In this document: piece after piece, positions 13,273 through 40,919 of the stretch
Layout of the letters: each line of letters begins with the position of its first letter
How positions within the stretch are numbered: position 1 is the first letter of the stretch
The notes under the pieces: generated by a model
Databases searched by the model: none
What the model saw: the letters and a program-made list of their open reading frames with translations, nothing else
What the model was told of the DNA's origin: nothing
Translations under genes and position numbers: made by a program
Source: Acidobacteriaceae bacterium
Lineage (GTDB): Bacteria > Acidobacteriota > Terriglobia > Terriglobales > Acidobacteriaceae
Assembly (NCBI GenBank): GCA_030041435.1
Contig: JASHNW010000019.1
Coordinates: 62,001-126,000 of the forward strand
Direction: 5' to 3'
Length of the DNA: 64,000 nt

Positions 13273-13276
13273 GGAC

Positions 13277-13318
13277 AGCAGTCAGTGGTTAGCGGATAGC
13301 AGTTAGCGGTTGGCGATC
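13277..13318 (+). repeat. Heptanucleotide repeat array, six units
   Basis: Six contiguous 7-base units: AGCAGTC, AGTGGTT, AGCGGAT, AGCAGTT, AGCGGTT, GGCGATC. It starts five bases after the fabG stop. AGCGGAT is the exact reverse complement of the unit ATCCGCT repeated at 15493-15548, so the two arrays are inverted and enclose nnr and tsaE. Confidence 0.75.
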
Positions 13319-15492: not shown

Positions 15493-15548
15493 ATTCGCTA
15501 CCGGCTACTCGGTATCCGCTATCGGCTGTCCGCTATCCGCTATCCGCT
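15493..15548 (+). repeat. Heptanucleotide repeat array, eight units
   Basis: Eight contiguous 7-base units with consensus ATCCGCT: ATTCGCT, ACCGGCT, ACTCGGT, ATCCGCT, ATCGGCT, GTCCGCT, ATCCGCT, ATCCGCT. It starts 12 bases after the tsaE stop and overlaps the TAG stop of the convergent MscS-like gene (15547-15549). It is inverted relative to the array at 13277-13318. Confidence 0.85.
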
Positions 15549-16251
15549 AAAAATGGTGGATGCGTTCGGGCTGCTGCACCTCGACCGGACGCGCAGCTTC
15601 GCGTTCGAGCGACCGGCTCACCAGGTCGCGCGAGCCGAGTCCCACTGCCAGAGCCAGCGCCAGAACGATGCCTCCGAACAGAATCCCAAACCCCAGCTCA
15701 ACGATTTCGCCCCCCAGCGCCAGGTGATCGAGCACCATCGCCCCGGTCAGCACCAGGATCATCCAGCGCACGCCCATGCTGAGCAGGCGCGCATAGCTCA
15801 GGTTAAGATTCACGCCCGTGATCAGCACGCTGCGCGAGGCGAAGCGCGCCAGCACGTTGCCGGCCAGCAGCAGCACCACCGCGCCAATGACGCGCGGAAC
15901 GTAGGCCAGAACCCACCCCGAGACAATGTGTTCCGAAGTGCCCGCCTCGAAGGCCGACGCGCCGACAATGATTCCAGCAATCGCCCAGAACCAGAAGACG
16001 ATGCGCGCCACCAGCAGTGTCGGCGTAATCCGCGGCGTCCACTCCGCAATCGCACTCGCGCCGCGGCTCATTCGCTCGTCGAAGCGCAGAGCATTGAGAA
16101 TCCAGCGCACCAGCATGGCCAGCACCCACCCCACGAGAAGAAAGAACAGGAAGGCGACAATGAACGCGAGGATGCCGGGAAGCAGCGTGGCAATCTTGTT
16201 CATCACGCGCCCCATCGACGAATGCAGCGATTGTTCGACCTGTTGCCACAT
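15547..16251 (-). CDS. Small MscS-related membrane protein (CmpX-like, TM-helix repeats)
   Basis: The 234-residue protein has about five hydrophobic helices: 22-50, 80-100, 115-140, 155-175 and 188-208. The Gly/Ala-patterned helices and the ending LALALAVGLGSRDLVSR resemble the conserved TM-helix repeat of mechanosensitive-channel relatives. The cytoplasmic beta domain of true MscS is missing, so channel activity is inferred only. It is the last gene of the glgE-treS operon (19-base gap upstream), fitting a role in osmotic or turgor control. Its stop codon lies in a heptamer repeat. Confidence 0.75.
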   Translation of the reverse strand: MWQQVEQSLHSSMGRVMNKIATLLPGILAFIVAFLFFLLVGWVLAMLVRWILNALRFDERMSRGASAIAEWTPRITPTLLVARIVFWFWAIAGIIVGASAFEAGTSEHIVSGWVLAYVPRVIGAVVLLLAGNVLARFASRSVLITGVNLNLSYARLLSMGVRWMILVLTGAMVLDHLALGGEIVELGFGILFGGIVLALALAVGLGSRDLVSRSLEREAARPVEVQQPERIHHF

Positions 16252-30318: not shown

Positions 30319-31410
30319 TCATTCCACTTCTTTGGTGATATTCAGCAGCACGCCGATCAGCACCAGCATGATGAACAGCGAAGTCCCCCCGTAGGAAATA
30401 AACGGCAGCGTGATGCCCTTGGTGGGCACCAGCGCCAGCACCACGCTGATGTTGAAGAAGGCCTGAATCAGGATCGTCGCCGTGATGCCGAACGCCAGGA
30501 ACCGCGCAAACGGGTCCTTCGACAGGATCGCAGCCCGCATGCCGCGCCACCCGATGAAGACGAACAGCCCCACCACCAGCAGCGCGCCCAGCAGCCCCAG
30601 CTCCTGCGCCACCGTCGCAAAAATATAATCCGTGTGCGGCTCGGGCAGATAGAAGAGCTTCGCCGCCCCGTCCATGTAGCCCACGCCCTTCACGCCGCCC
30701 GACCCCACCGCGATGAGCGACTGCAGTATGTGGTAGCCCTTGCCCAGCGGATCCGATTCCGGATTGATGAAGGCCAGCAGCCGGTCGCGCCGCCACTTCA
30801 CGCGAAACAGCATGAAGTACAGCACCGGCGTCGCCGCCAGCGCCGCGTAGCCCAGATATTTGAAGTTGACCCCGGCCAGCCACAGCATGAGCGCCGTGAC
30901 GCCGGCGCATACCAGCGCCGTCCCCAGGTCCGGCTCTTTCAAAATGAGCGCGATGAAAATCAGGCTGGGCAGCGCCGCCGGCAGCACCGTTTGCCGCACA
31001 TTGTCCATCGCCCCCATCCGATTCTGCAGAAACCATGCCAGAAACAGCACCAGCGCCGGCTTGGCGAACTCAGACGGCTGGAACGACAGCGCCCCGAAGC
31101 GAATCCAGCGATGCGTGTTGTGCGAGTCGCGCATCAGAAACGCGGCCAGCAGCAGCATGATAGTGATGCCCACCAGCGGAAACACCACGCTGGGCCGGTT
31201 GTAGCGGCCGTAATTCACGCCCATCAGCAGCGTCATGCAAATCAGCCCCGCCGCCGCATAGATCGCCTGCCGCGTCACGAAATAGTAGGGCGAACCGAAG
31301 CTGTCCTTGGCCATCACCGCCGACGCGCTGAACACCATCGCCAGCCCGATGACGACCAGCACCAGCGTGGCGAAATACAGCCATTTGTCGACGCCTACGT
31401 GTTTTGCCAT
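30319..31410 (-). CDS. ftsW: Cell division lipid II polymerase/flippase-family protein FtsW
   Basis: A 363-residue SEDS-family peptidoglycan glycosyltransferase with about ten membrane helices. Hallmarks seen are RWIRFGALSFQPSEFAK, the KEPDLGTALV segment, the large periplasmic loop with LGKGYHILQS, and FISYGGTSL near the C-terminus. It polymerises lipid II together with FtsI at the septum. FtsW is preferred to RodA by its place in the dcw cluster. Its start codon is eight bases from the heptamer array at 31418. Confidence 0.95.
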   Translation of the reverse strand: MAKHVGVDKWLYFATLVLVVIGLAMVFSASAVMAKDSFGSPYYFVTRQAIYAAAGLICMTLLMGVNYGRYNRPSVVFPLVGITIMLLLAAFLMRDSHNTHRWIRFGALSFQPSEFAKPALVLFLAWFLQNRMGAMDNVRQTVLPAALPSLIFIALILKEPDLGTALVCAGVTALMLWLAGVNFKYLGYAALAATPVLYFMLFRVKWRRDRLLAFINPESDPLGKGYHILQSLIAVGSGGVKGVGYMDGAAKLFYLPEPHTDYIFATVAQELGLLGALLVVGLFVFIGWRGMRAAILSKDPFARFLAFGITATILIQAFFNISVVLALVPTKGITLPFISYGGTSLFIMLVLIGVLLNITKEVE

Positions 31411-31417
31411 AAAGACA

Positions 31418-31441
31418 GTTATTAGTTGCTAGTTGTTAGTT
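31418..31441 (+). repeat. Heptanucleotide array, left flank of four-helix-bundle gene
   Basis: Three units, GTTATTA, GTTGCTA and GTTGTTA, plus a partial GTTT. They overlap the end of the four-helix-bundle gene, so its last residues and TAG stop are repeat-encoded. On the plus strand the phase reads TTGCTAG, the reverse complement of the CTAGCAA units at 31848-31938. Confidence 0.8.
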
Positions 31442-31818
31442 TCCGGCAATTGGCCGTTTTCGTTGTCCGAAAGCGACTGCAGCAGCCCGTTGAGCATGCG
31501 TCCCACTTCGTTTGCTGCCGATTCCGTATGCAGCAGCCTGTCCTGGGCCGCGAAGCCCAGATTGCCTGCAATCACGAGTTGCGTCTGCACTTCGCAAACG
31601 GAGCCGCGAGCCATTTTCAGGAACTGGCGAAACTCCTTCCTGGTGCCGCGTCCCGATCCTTCCGCAATATTGCTGGCCACCGACACCGCCGCACGCCTCA
31701 ACTGCGAGATGAGCCCGTACATCTCAGCTTTCGGAAACGCTTCGGTCAACCGATATACCTCCGTCGTCATGTCGATCGCACGCTGCCAAACCATTAGATC
31801 GCGGAACGACTTTCCCAT
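31429..31818 (-). CDS. Four-helix-bundle protein, S23/IVS-encoded family
   Basis: A 129-residue all-helical protein. FRDLMVWQRAIDM near the N-terminus, the QLRRAAVSVASNIAEGSGR segment and the EFRQFLKMARGSVCEVQTQL segment are hallmarks of the S23 four-helix-bundle family (23S rRNA intervening-sequence proteins; related to Avd of diversity-generating retroelements). Its function in such settings is unknown; a basic pentameric nucleic-acid-binding role is known for relatives. It interrupts the dcw cluster between murD and ftsW and is bracketed by inverted heptamer arrays. ATG 31818 is chosen because the family starts just before the FRDL motif. Confidence 0.88.
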   Translation of the reverse strand: MGKSFRDLMVWQRAIDMTTEVYRLTEAFPKAEMYGLISQLRRAAVSVASNIAEGSGRGTRKEFRQFLKMARGSVCEVQTQLVIAGNLGFAAQDRLLHTESAANEVGRMLNGLLQSLSDNENGQLPETNN

Positions 31819-31847
31819 GCGACACCAGGCTTTCCACTTGCCAATCA

Positions 31848-31938
31848 CTAGCAACTAGCAACCAGCAACCAGCAACTAGCAACTAACAGCTAGCAACTAG
31901 CAACTAACAACCAACAACTGGCAACTGGCAACCAGCAA
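31848..31938 (-). repeat. Heptanucleotide array, 13 units, right flank of four-helix-bundle gene
   Basis: Thirteen contiguous 7-base units on the plus strand: CTAGCAA, CTAGCAA, CCAGCAA, CCAGCAA, CTAGCAA, CTAACAG, CTAGCAA, CTAGCAA, CTAACAA, CCAACAA, CTGGCAA, CTGGCAA, CCAGCAA. Only positions 2-4 vary, apart from one final base. On the coding (minus) strand the array starts directly at the murD TAG stop and reads TTGCTAG-type units. Confidence 0.93.
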
Positions 31939-33312
31939 CTATCTCCTCGCCACCACTTCCCGCCTTGCCAGAACCGTTTCTTTGAAAACTCTTCCCCGAT
32001 GCTCGTAGTTCTCGAACTGATCGAAACTCGAACAGGCCGGCGCCAGCAGCACAATCTCCCCGGGCTGCGCTGCAGCGGCCGCGCGCGCAATCGCCTCTTC
32101 CAGCGTCCCCGCACTCACAATGGGCGCGGCCCCCTCGATGTGCGTGTGAATCTTCTCCGCTGCCGCTCCGATCGTGTACACGGCCTTCACCCGCTCGGTG
32201 ATCAGCGCCCGCATCTGCCGGTAATCGGAGTTCTTGTCCTTGCCGCCCAGAATCAGATGAATCCCGCCCGGAAACGCAGCAATCGCCTTCATCGAAGCGT
32301 CCACGTTCGTCGCTTTCGAATCGTTGTAATAATCCACGCCGTTCAGCTTCGCCACAAACTCCAGCCGGTGCTCGACCGCCTTAAAGCTCTTCACCGCCGC
32401 GCGGATCGTCTCCGCCTGCACGCCCGCCAGCCGCGCCGCACAGACTGCGGCCAGCACGTTCTCCACGTTGTGCGCGCCCTTCAGCGGAATCTCCTCGACC
32501 TTCAGTACCGGCTCCGGCTGCGCCTGCTCCGAAGCGCGAAACACGATCACGCCCTCGTGGACGAACGCGCCCTGGCGAACCACTTTCGTCCGGCTGAACC
32601 AGCAGATCCGCGACTTCGCCCGCGCCGCCGCGCGCTTCGCCGTCTCGTCGTCGGCATTCAGCACCAGAGCGTCGTCCGCCGTCTGCAGCGCGAAGATGCG
32701 CTCCTTGGCCGCCACGTAATTCTCGAACGTCCCGTGCCGGTCCAGGTGGTCCGGCGTAATGTTCAGAATCACCGCAATCTGCGGGTGAAATGTGTAGGTC
32801 GTCTCCAGCTGAAAACTCGACACCTCCAGTACCGACCAGCCGTCTTCGCGCGACTCGTCCACCAGAGAGATGACCGGCACGCCGATGTTGCCGCCCACCT
32901 GCACCGCCAGCTTGCCCGCCTTCAAAATTTCGCCGCACAGCGTCGTCGTAGTGGTTTTGCCGTTCGATCCGGTAATCGCCAGTACCTTGCCGCGCAAATA
33001 ATGCGCCGCCAGCTCCAGCTCGCCGATGATCGGCTGCCCGAACTTCTGCACCTGCGTCAGCTCCGGCGTATCGATCGGCACGCCCGGGCTCACCACAATC
33101 AGATCCTGCCGCCGGAAGGTCAGCAGCCCGTGTCCGCCGGCCTCAACCGCAATGCCCTCGTCGATCAGCGCCGGAATGTCCTTCGCCAGCGCCTCGGCGC
33201 TGCGCACGTCCGACACCGTCACCTGCGCGCCCTGCCGCCGCAAAAACAGCGCCGCCGCCAGCCCGGACTTGCCCAGACCGACAACCAGAACCTTTTTCCC
33301 CTTGATCTCCAT
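31939..33312 (-). CDS. murD: UDP-N-acetylmuramoyl-L-alanine--D-glutamate ligase
   Basis: MurD adds D-Glu to UDP-MurNAc-L-Ala in the cytoplasm. The 457-residue product has an N-terminal Rossmann domain (VVGLGKSGLAAA), the ATP loop ITGSNGKTTTTTL near residue 110, the NITPDHLDRHGTFENY segment, VDYYNDSKATN and the C-terminal LAPACSSFDQFENYEHRG. All family blocks are present. A heptamer array begins at its stop codon. It follows mraY with a 50-base gap. Confidence 0.97.
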   Translation of the reverse strand: MEIKGKKVLVVGLGKSGLAAALFLRRQGAQVTVSDVRSAEALAKDIPALIDEGIAVEAGGHGLLTFRRQDLIVVSPGVPIDTPELTQVQKFGQPIIGELELAAHYLRGKVLAITGSNGKTTTTTLCGEILKAGKLAVQVGGNIGVPVISLVDESREDGWSVLEVSSFQLETTYTFHPQIAVILNITPDHLDRHGTFENYVAAKERIFALQTADDALVLNADDETAKRAAARAKSRICWFSRTKVVRQGAFVHEGVIVFRASEQAQPEPVLKVEEIPLKGAHNVENVLAAVCAARLAGVQAETIRAAVKSFKAVEHRLEFVAKLNGVDYYNDSKATNVDASMKAIAAFPGGIHLILGGKDKNSDYRQMRALITERVKAVYTIGAAAEKIHTHIEGAAPIVSAGTLEEAIARAAAAAQPGEIVLLAPACSSFDQFENYEHRGRVFKETVLARREVVARR

Positions 33313-40570: not shown

Positions 40571-40695
40571 AACTCCAGTTACCACTTCCTGGTTGTTAGT
40601 TTCTGGTTGCCGACTGCCTGAAAATTTGATTGCTGCCGTAAACTTCAATTCACCCTGCCAACGACTAACAACTAACAACTGGCAACTAACCACTG
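40571..40695. repeat. Inverted heptamer arrays around a 39-base core
   Basis: Left arm 40571-40615 has units such as GTTACCA, CTTCCTG, GTTGTTA, GTTTCTG, GTTGCCG. Right arm 40655-40695 has CTAACAA, CTAACAA, CTGGCAA, CTAACCA. The arms are reverse-complementary in pattern and differ in detail, and enclose an AT-richer core (40616-40654). It lies in the rsmH-ftsL gap, so it would be in the operon mRNA as a long imperfect hairpin. Confidence 0.75.
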
Positions 40696-40819: not shown

Positions 40820-40919
40820 GCTATCAGCTGTTACCTCTTAGCCACTGGCTTTTAGCCGGGACCGTTCGGGCCACCACGATCCGAGCTAACGGCTGGCAGC
40901 TGGTAGCTAACAGCTTCTT
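40820..40919. repeat. Second inverted heptamer array pair, abutting the rsmH stop
   Basis: Left arm 40820-40854: GCTATCA, GCTGTTA, CCTCTTA, GCCACTG, GCTTTTA. Right arm 40885-40919: GCTAACG, GCTGGCA, GCTGGTA, GCTAACA, GCTTCTT. The right arm touches the rsmH stop codon (40919-40921). With the arrays at 40571-40695 it fills most of the 353-base rsmH-ftsL gap, in which I see no gene. Confidence 0.75.

Follow-up and report, generated by a model that had tools for sequence, protein, structure and literature searches.

The window analyzed here, a 64,000-nucleotide stretch of Acidobacteriaceae DNA on contig C82 of the 5.77-Mb draft genome G000, carries between murD and ftsW what is probably a compact mobile element of about 0.5–0.6 kb, consisting of inverted, locus-specific heptamer arrays and one gene of the S23/IVP family. 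The observations behind this reading are the linkage of S23 genes to such arrays, the mirroring of the two arms, the co-inheritance of arms and gene, the absence and decay of units among relatives, the occupation of one site by differing units, the occurrence of both orientations, and selection on the protein. From these we infer that the unit has spread to new intergenic sites and that S23 has a part in its movement. The features concerned are the following.

30319..31410, minus strand: ftsW, the operon neighbor downstream of S23
31419..31439: 3′ arm, three inverted heptamers that overlap the C-terminal codons and the stop of S23
31429..31854, minus strand: S23/IVP (PF05635) four-helix-bundle gene, an open frame of 141 aa
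31847..31939: 5′ arm, 13 tandem heptamers, TAGTTGC-type in gene sense, abutting the murD stop codon
31939..33312, minus strand: murD, the operon neighbor upstream of S23
40577..40687: inverted pair of this heptamer family elsewhere in the gene cluster, enclosing no gene, with arms at 40577–40600 and 40664–40687

Set between murD and ftsW and running the same way as the operon, the S23 gene has a probable ATG at 31818 (judged by eye), and in profile searches its product matched PF05635 (23S_rRNA_IVP; E 1.2e-37) and TIGR02436, four helix bundle protein (E 2e-36). An earlier note on this DNA had described the gene as bracketed by three heptamers on one side and thirteen, inverted, on the other, and a unit scan bore this out: 13 CTAGCAA-type units, each with at most two mismatches, occupy 31848–31938, and three of opposite orientation 31419–31439. 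For the right array, Tandem Repeats Finder reported 13.6 copies of 7 at 31847–31941 (score 120). The junctions are also as described there. The right array starts at the murD stop codon, the TAG of which (31939–31941) forms the opening three bases of one TAGTTGC unit, and the left (3′) array encodes the final residues and the stop of the S23 protein. The exact word TTGCTAG occurs six times in the window against 2.68 expected, a number reached in 6 of 100 shuffles; exact counting was set aside as non-significant alone, and tests of period and mirroring were used instead. It is the tandem, mirrored arrangement that is remarkable, rather than the exact TTGCTAG count. When positions 31411–31960 were folded as RNA, the predicted structure, in which the two arms pair, was more stable than those of all 100 shuffles (z −4.2).

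The window unit is not peculiar to the dcw cluster, being one of six S23 loci in G000 and a member of a class found in many phyla. Each of the six is bordered by a period-7 array on one or both sides, the heptamers differing among them, and the four other copies that were aligned to the window’s are just 51–61% identical to it, which gives no hint of a recent burst. The gene-less inverted pair at 40577–40687 lies 9 kb from the unit. Two more gene-less heptamer arrays, of TAGCNNN type, occur in the window at 13273–13315 and 15496–15549, behind apparent stop codons; a weaker inverted heptamer-like pair of TAACAGC type at 40835–40913, near 40577–40687, is unconvincing (score 10).

Linkage between S23 genes and heptamer arrays was measured in S23 genes taken partly from the family and partly from a broad set of genomes, 103 of 108 being used because 200 bp was required on both sides. 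A period-7 array lay within 200 bp of 62 of these 103 genes (on the 5′ side of 45, the 3′ side of 49, and both sides of 32), compared with 68 of 4266 background 200-bp pieces. Other periods were scarce, periods 5, 6, and 9–13 each accounting for 0 to 2 genes and period 8 for nine. This enrichment of period 8 (9/103) has a counterpart at L263, some S23 units apparently having octamer arms. The 5′ flank matched the 3′ flank in inverted orientation with a score of at least 15 at 81 of 103 genes vs. 31 of 1533 cross-locus pairs, the median score being 18.5 against the reverse complement of the gene’s own 3′ flank and 8.0 against that of another locus; in direct orientation only 11 of 103 reached 15. 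Of 1515 random flank pairs placed elsewhere in the same loci, four reached an inverted score of 15, and these cross-locus and random-placement controls rule out chance or local composition as the origin of the mirrored arms.

A set of 212 S23 genes, from which repeated locus copies had been removed, was examined with 220-bp flanks and an array threshold of 10 (11 in the 103-gene test). A period-7 array stood beside 141 of them, with both arms in 101, and in 71 none was detected within the 220-bp flanks. Location in rRNA was rejected as an explanation of array-less S23 genes, none of 16 loci checked having an rRNA match. For the 101 two-armed genes, the heptamers of the two arms, compared in inverted orientation, were identical in 54 and within one mismatch in 88, compared with 10 of 101 within one mismatch in direct orientation and 3.1% of 10100 inverted pairs of arms from different loci. 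The 255 arrays comprise 151 distinct heptamers up to rotation. A consensus fitted in gene sense reads YAGKKRN, and after fitting its third-place G is present in 65 of 65 5′ arms. The earlier note had proposed a search for the same gene with the same array type at other loci; the gene with mirrored heptamers does recur, but the heptamer word mostly differs. Among 81 S23 genes from named records, inverted arms scored at least 15 in 62 and an array was present on a side in 48. Going by record titles, S23 genes with an array or arms occur in Acidobacteriota, Bacteroidota, Planctomycetota, Pseudomonadota, Bacillota, Fibrobacterota, Verrucomicrobiota, Chloroflexota, and others, and with inverted arms only in Patescibacteria; in the only Methanophagales archaeon whose flanks were long enough, one side carries an array and no inverted score reaches 15. 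The few unit sites that were read closely lie between a stop codon and the start signals of the next gene.

Sequence comparison indicates that S23 is under purifying selection, with dN/dS of 0.06–0.10 in the five computable pairs (dS up to 2.9; three more were saturated). In 199 S23 proteins longer than 95 residues, E65 and E88 are invariant and Q51, R54, S58, N62, and S85 near-invariant (Q51, S58, and N62 vary in about 1%), although conservation at residues 58–66 is inflated because 80 loci were found via a peptide pattern covering 58–66. The AlphaFold2 model of the window S23 is confident (pLDDT 92) and matches 2gsc and 2rld, both solved structures of S23 proteins (five chains in each). Matches to Avd (4dwl, 8ub7, and relatives) were weaker, with Foldseek TM of 0.64–0.69 and E-values of 0.015 and up. 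The window protein matched the PHROG Avd profile with an E of 3.9e-10 and stayed below the cut-offs of the Avd family models (NCBIfam NF033474, 26.8 bits vs. 80; bAvd, 28.5 vs. 40). As modeled, it shares the fold of Avd, and the kinship to S23 and Avd proteins suggested in the earlier note is backed at this level. Domain and family searches gave S23 no match to nuclease, transposase, or defense families, and found no transposase domain in the unit, in agreement with what had been noted at the outset. A reading of S23 as part of a defense system was dropped, three S23 proteins having no PADLOC match.

At the murD-ftsW junction, the unit is present in only part of the genus. The junction is plain in seven of the 12 genus genomes: six of these have 24–33 nt between the end of the murD match and the ftsW start, and in the seventh, G102, the contig ends, leaving no ftsW match, and the start codon was identified by eye. 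The complete S23 unit is present in G000, a gene-less inverted array of 119 nt in G108, and, enclosed by heptamer ends, the start of an S23 gene with foreign repeats after it in G106 (L048); G107 and G097 have other inserts. The repeats at L048 form hairpins of GGCCTGAAGGCC type and seem to belong to a different repeat family that has inserted into the unit. The G107 insert (L045) is an inverted-repeat insert without heptamers, with 212 nt between matches, which suggests that the spot tolerates several kinds of insert. In the murD and ftsW trees, G000, G106, and G108 share a clade with the empty G033 and G105 (support 97/97 for ftsW and, for the whole clade, 86/88 for murD; G102 is absent from the ftsW tree). 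On these trees, the pattern would fit either a single insertion that was afterwards lost in places or several separate insertions. The earlier note had taken repeat-gene-repeat to be an insertion unit and had pointed to near relatives as the place to look for empty sites, against the chance that all of them have the gene at this same place; the seven plain junctions speak for the unit. Variation in presence among relatives, by which insertion sequences and MITEs are judged, is thus observed for the S23 unit.

Sites shared between genomes allow arms and gene to be compared. Pairs of array-bearing S23 genes with both flanks homologous number 53 and span species and genera, so that movement is slow in comparison with insertion sequences. 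Pairs from one site are not independent, the set keeps some near-identical loci (e.g., L264, L267, L268) that were dropped from the 212-gene set, and L168 and L231, the same DNA in two collections, were counted once in locus comparisons. At one site, heptamers were within one base of each other in 17 of 20 (non-independent) pairs when the S23 proteins were at least 65% identical, in 11 of 28 at 55–65% identity, and in two of five below 55%; of 10211 pairs from unrelated sites, 4.7% agreed as closely. The heptamer thus goes with the gene, and arms and gene are inherited together. Some sites hold differing units. At L262/L271 (G136/G148 vs. G172), a site bounded by a stop codon and the ribosome-binding site that follows it, the flanks are 97–98% identical between G136 and G172, and the S23 proteins are 56% identical, have no DNA alignment, and are accompanied by different heptamers. 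At L023/L073, in two species of one genus (G025 and G091), the flanks are 85–88% identical, the S23 identity is 58%, the heptamers are two bases apart, and the orientation is opposite. These comparisons bear on an alternative that we regard as unlikely, namely that S23 genes insert into the loops of heptamer hairpins already borne by the site, like IVSs in rRNA helices. Such hairpins would be consistent with the abundance of gene-less arrays where S23 occurs and with the position of the Coxiella burnetii IVS, which the available text of one paper places in helix 45 of 23S rRNA (PMC4990558). However, heptamer identity at a site tracks S23 identity (17/20 vs. 11/28), the arms change together with the gene at both L262/L271 and L023/L073, and murD-ftsW junctions that lack the gene lack arrays as well in 7 of 12 genomes.

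Other candidates for copies of one unit were more ambiguous. A deltaproteobacterial contig carries two S23 units 4.8 kb apart, with proteins 85% identical and matching arms and with no blastn match beyond the arms; a response-regulator-like gene follows each unit (by eye), so that both may stem from an old duplication of a longer stretch. An apparently identical pair at L187 proved to be one locus overlapping itself, and plasmid copies were rejected as new insertions, since whole regions are common to the plasmids. On cyanobacterial plasmids (L196–L199), heptamer-armed S23 genes lie in shared regions, one of them near a TrbI/VirB10 family gene.

Orientation and decay can be followed at another site, L001, where the gene lies against its neighbors in G000 and along them in G101 and G107. 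The units in the latter are 82–84% identical to that of G000 and the flanks 77–83%; the unit being about as similar as its flanks, it was either flipped between its arms or set in reversed. G103 retains an S23 remnant at this site, and G100 (with an N run) and G108 array-like leftovers; G102, G104, G105, and G106 are clearly without the unit, and G033 and G097 have longer spacers. An invertible regulatory cassette, in which the arms flip the gene and so switch expression of S23 or of a neighbor, would account for the opposite orientations of L001 and of L399 and L400, with the unit about as similar as the flanks, and for the five of 53 same-site pairs, from four sites, that are flipped. We nevertheless consider it very improbable: the other 48 pairs are unflipped, flips are seen between species only, and homologous recombination between inverted repeats would yield them as a side effect. 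Where sites are comparable (murD-ftsW, L001, L263), the flanks have diverged or the whole spacer differs, and no target-site duplication was discerned; the L273 flanks gave no corresponding site in two close relatives.

Gene-less arrays go with S23 at the level of whole genomes. Arrays away from S23 were sampled in about 5 to 60 kb per genome. Ten S23-rich genomes, picked from those with 3 to 11 copies, yielded 22 arrays in 400 kb, all from five genomes, with no array in the 40 kb sampled in each of the other five; 22 S23-negative genomes yielded three in 592 kb, divided into none in 328 kb (nine genomes) and three in 264 kb (thirteen genomes), on one G026 contig. In G136, dozens of other places match the arms of one S23 unit. 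Among 21 gene-less array loci inspected in G136, G148, and G172 (some overlapping), five have an inverted pair within 150 bp and the remainder arrays in a single orientation. The earlier note had considered that heptamers might occur everywhere without linkage to such genes; gene-less arrays do exist, yet linkage is strong at both locus and genome level.

This link at genome level is one of the points that make a non-mobile resident gene improbable as an explanation of the unit. Under that alternative, S23 would be inherited vertically, its arms would process or insulate the transcript, and slippage together with correction between arms would mimic mobility. It would agree with the 53 array-bearing pairs sharing both flanks across species and genera, with the strong purifying selection on S23, and with the folding of the unit (z −4.2, better than shuffles). 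It is harder to reconcile with the empty murD-ftsW junctions, with the differing units between near-identical flanks at L262/L271, with the presence of one unit type twice in the deltaproteobacterial contig (where an old, longer duplication is possible), and with the ties between gene-less arrays and S23 genomes.

If the unit does move, the enzyme could in principle be one other than S23. A RAYT/Y1 transposase or a reverse transcriptase moving the arrays, with S23 as a passenger, would fit the correlation between Y1 transposase and S23 counts (Spearman 0.62, 100 genomes) and the fold that S23 shares with Avd, a reverse transcriptase partner. Both counts may merely mark permissive genomes. PF01797 (RAYT-like Y1 transposase) was matched in 89 of 100 genomes, and L378–L397 are the loci that were looked at: heptamer arrays were found within 300–350 bp of none of these 20 RAYT-like genes, whereas their own flanks match each other in inverted orientation with a score of at least 24 in 19 of 20 cases and lie above the 99th percentile of cross-locus pairs in 13 of 20. 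RAYT was rejected as the mover of the arrays on these 20 loci, in spite of the correlated counts. A general need for a reverse transcriptase was likewise rejected, PF00078 having no match in 38 of 73 S23-positive genomes, including 15 of the 34 with at least four S23 genes (some of these genomes are incomplete drafts). There is none on the window contig C82, the four RVT_1 matches of G000 being on C52, C50, C27, and C94. A passenger role for S23 therefore seems quite unlikely, and the simplest remaining candidate for the mover would be S23 itself acting with host enzymes.

How such a probably mobile unit might work can be sketched as follows. The mirrored arms would fold into a stem or hairpin, in RNA or in single-stranded DNA, and a pentamer of S23 might bind the folded arms, by analogy with Avd. 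Host replication and repair could then copy or paste the unit into an intergenic gap. Gene-less arrays would be non-autonomous copies or remnants left after loss of the gene, perhaps still moved in trans. Repeat slippage would alter array length, pairing or correction between arms would keep them alike, and recombination between arms could flip the gene. A wider and more tentative proposal, which we put forward as a possibility and on balance doubt, is that these units form a new class of transposable element in bacteria and perhaps archaea, with S23 as a mobility protein acting on heptamer hairpins by a novel route, the scattered heptamer repeats as its gene-less offspring, and rRNA IVSs as copies that landed in rRNA.

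Several known systems resemble the unit in part. Avd, of diversity-generating retroelements, is a pentamer that binds nucleic acid. The window S23 shares its fold but falls below the Avd model cut-offs and has no reverse transcriptase match on its contig. REP/RAYT systems, which go by the name of REPtrons, likewise have a small gene between inverted repeats and gene-less copies elsewhere, although for S23 only 5 of the 21 inspected gene-less loci are inverted pairs of this type; they differ in that S23 is not a Y1/HUH protein and in that RAYT-like genes lack heptamer arrays (0/20). MITEs and Foldback-type elements such as Galileo have inverted, internally repetitive ends and gene-less derivatives. 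Both traits recur in S23 units, in which the enclosed gene is S23 and not a transposase. In anatomy, the unit is built like the IVSs of 23S rRNA, described in the available text of PMC4990558 as an S23 ORF between stem-forming terminal inverted repeats and as a suspected mobile element or the remnant of one. They have in common with the window unit the protein family, the single ORF, and terminal inverted repeats able to pair, but the window unit lies between the protein genes murD and ftsW and not inside 23S rRNA, and whereas the C. burnetii IVS is described there with a 28-bp stem (PMC4990558), arms of the window type are tandem heptamers that differ by locus.

Heptamer arrays have been reported in their own right. 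In the accessible parts of the two papers concerned, intergenic tandem heptamers, also as inverted pairs, with 70 cases in Xcc, are described for Xanthomonas and Nostoc (PMC4692102), and TAACTGA arrays for Beggiatoaceae, Cyanobacteria, and Bacteroidetes, with no evident mechanism of transfer for the Beggiatoaceae repeats according to the authors (PMC4679880). The window unit, too, has intergenic tandem heptamers, and TAACTGA itself was found in one S23 flank, L092. The terms “S23” and “four helix” are absent from the main texts of both (PMC4692102; PMC4679880), and searches of an incomplete collection of open-licence PMC papers turned up no report tying S23 genes to heptamer arrays. What is already known, then, is an IVS-like anatomy and, separately, heptamer arrays; what appears to be new is the tie between S23 and the arrays. 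The S23 element is a likely source of bacterial heptamer repeats that had been reported without explanation.

Two old puzzles meet in this tie: the function of S23/IVP, decades after the discovery of rRNA IVSs, and the source of scattered heptamer repeats. If arrays and S23 form one element, both become open to direct test, since S23 gains a substrate and the heptamers a gene to go with them. Such an element would also be uncommon among mobile units: its ends are locus-specific yet stay mirrored, it is seen here within an essential operon, and what appears to serve it is a small protein of helical-bundle type instead of a known transposase.
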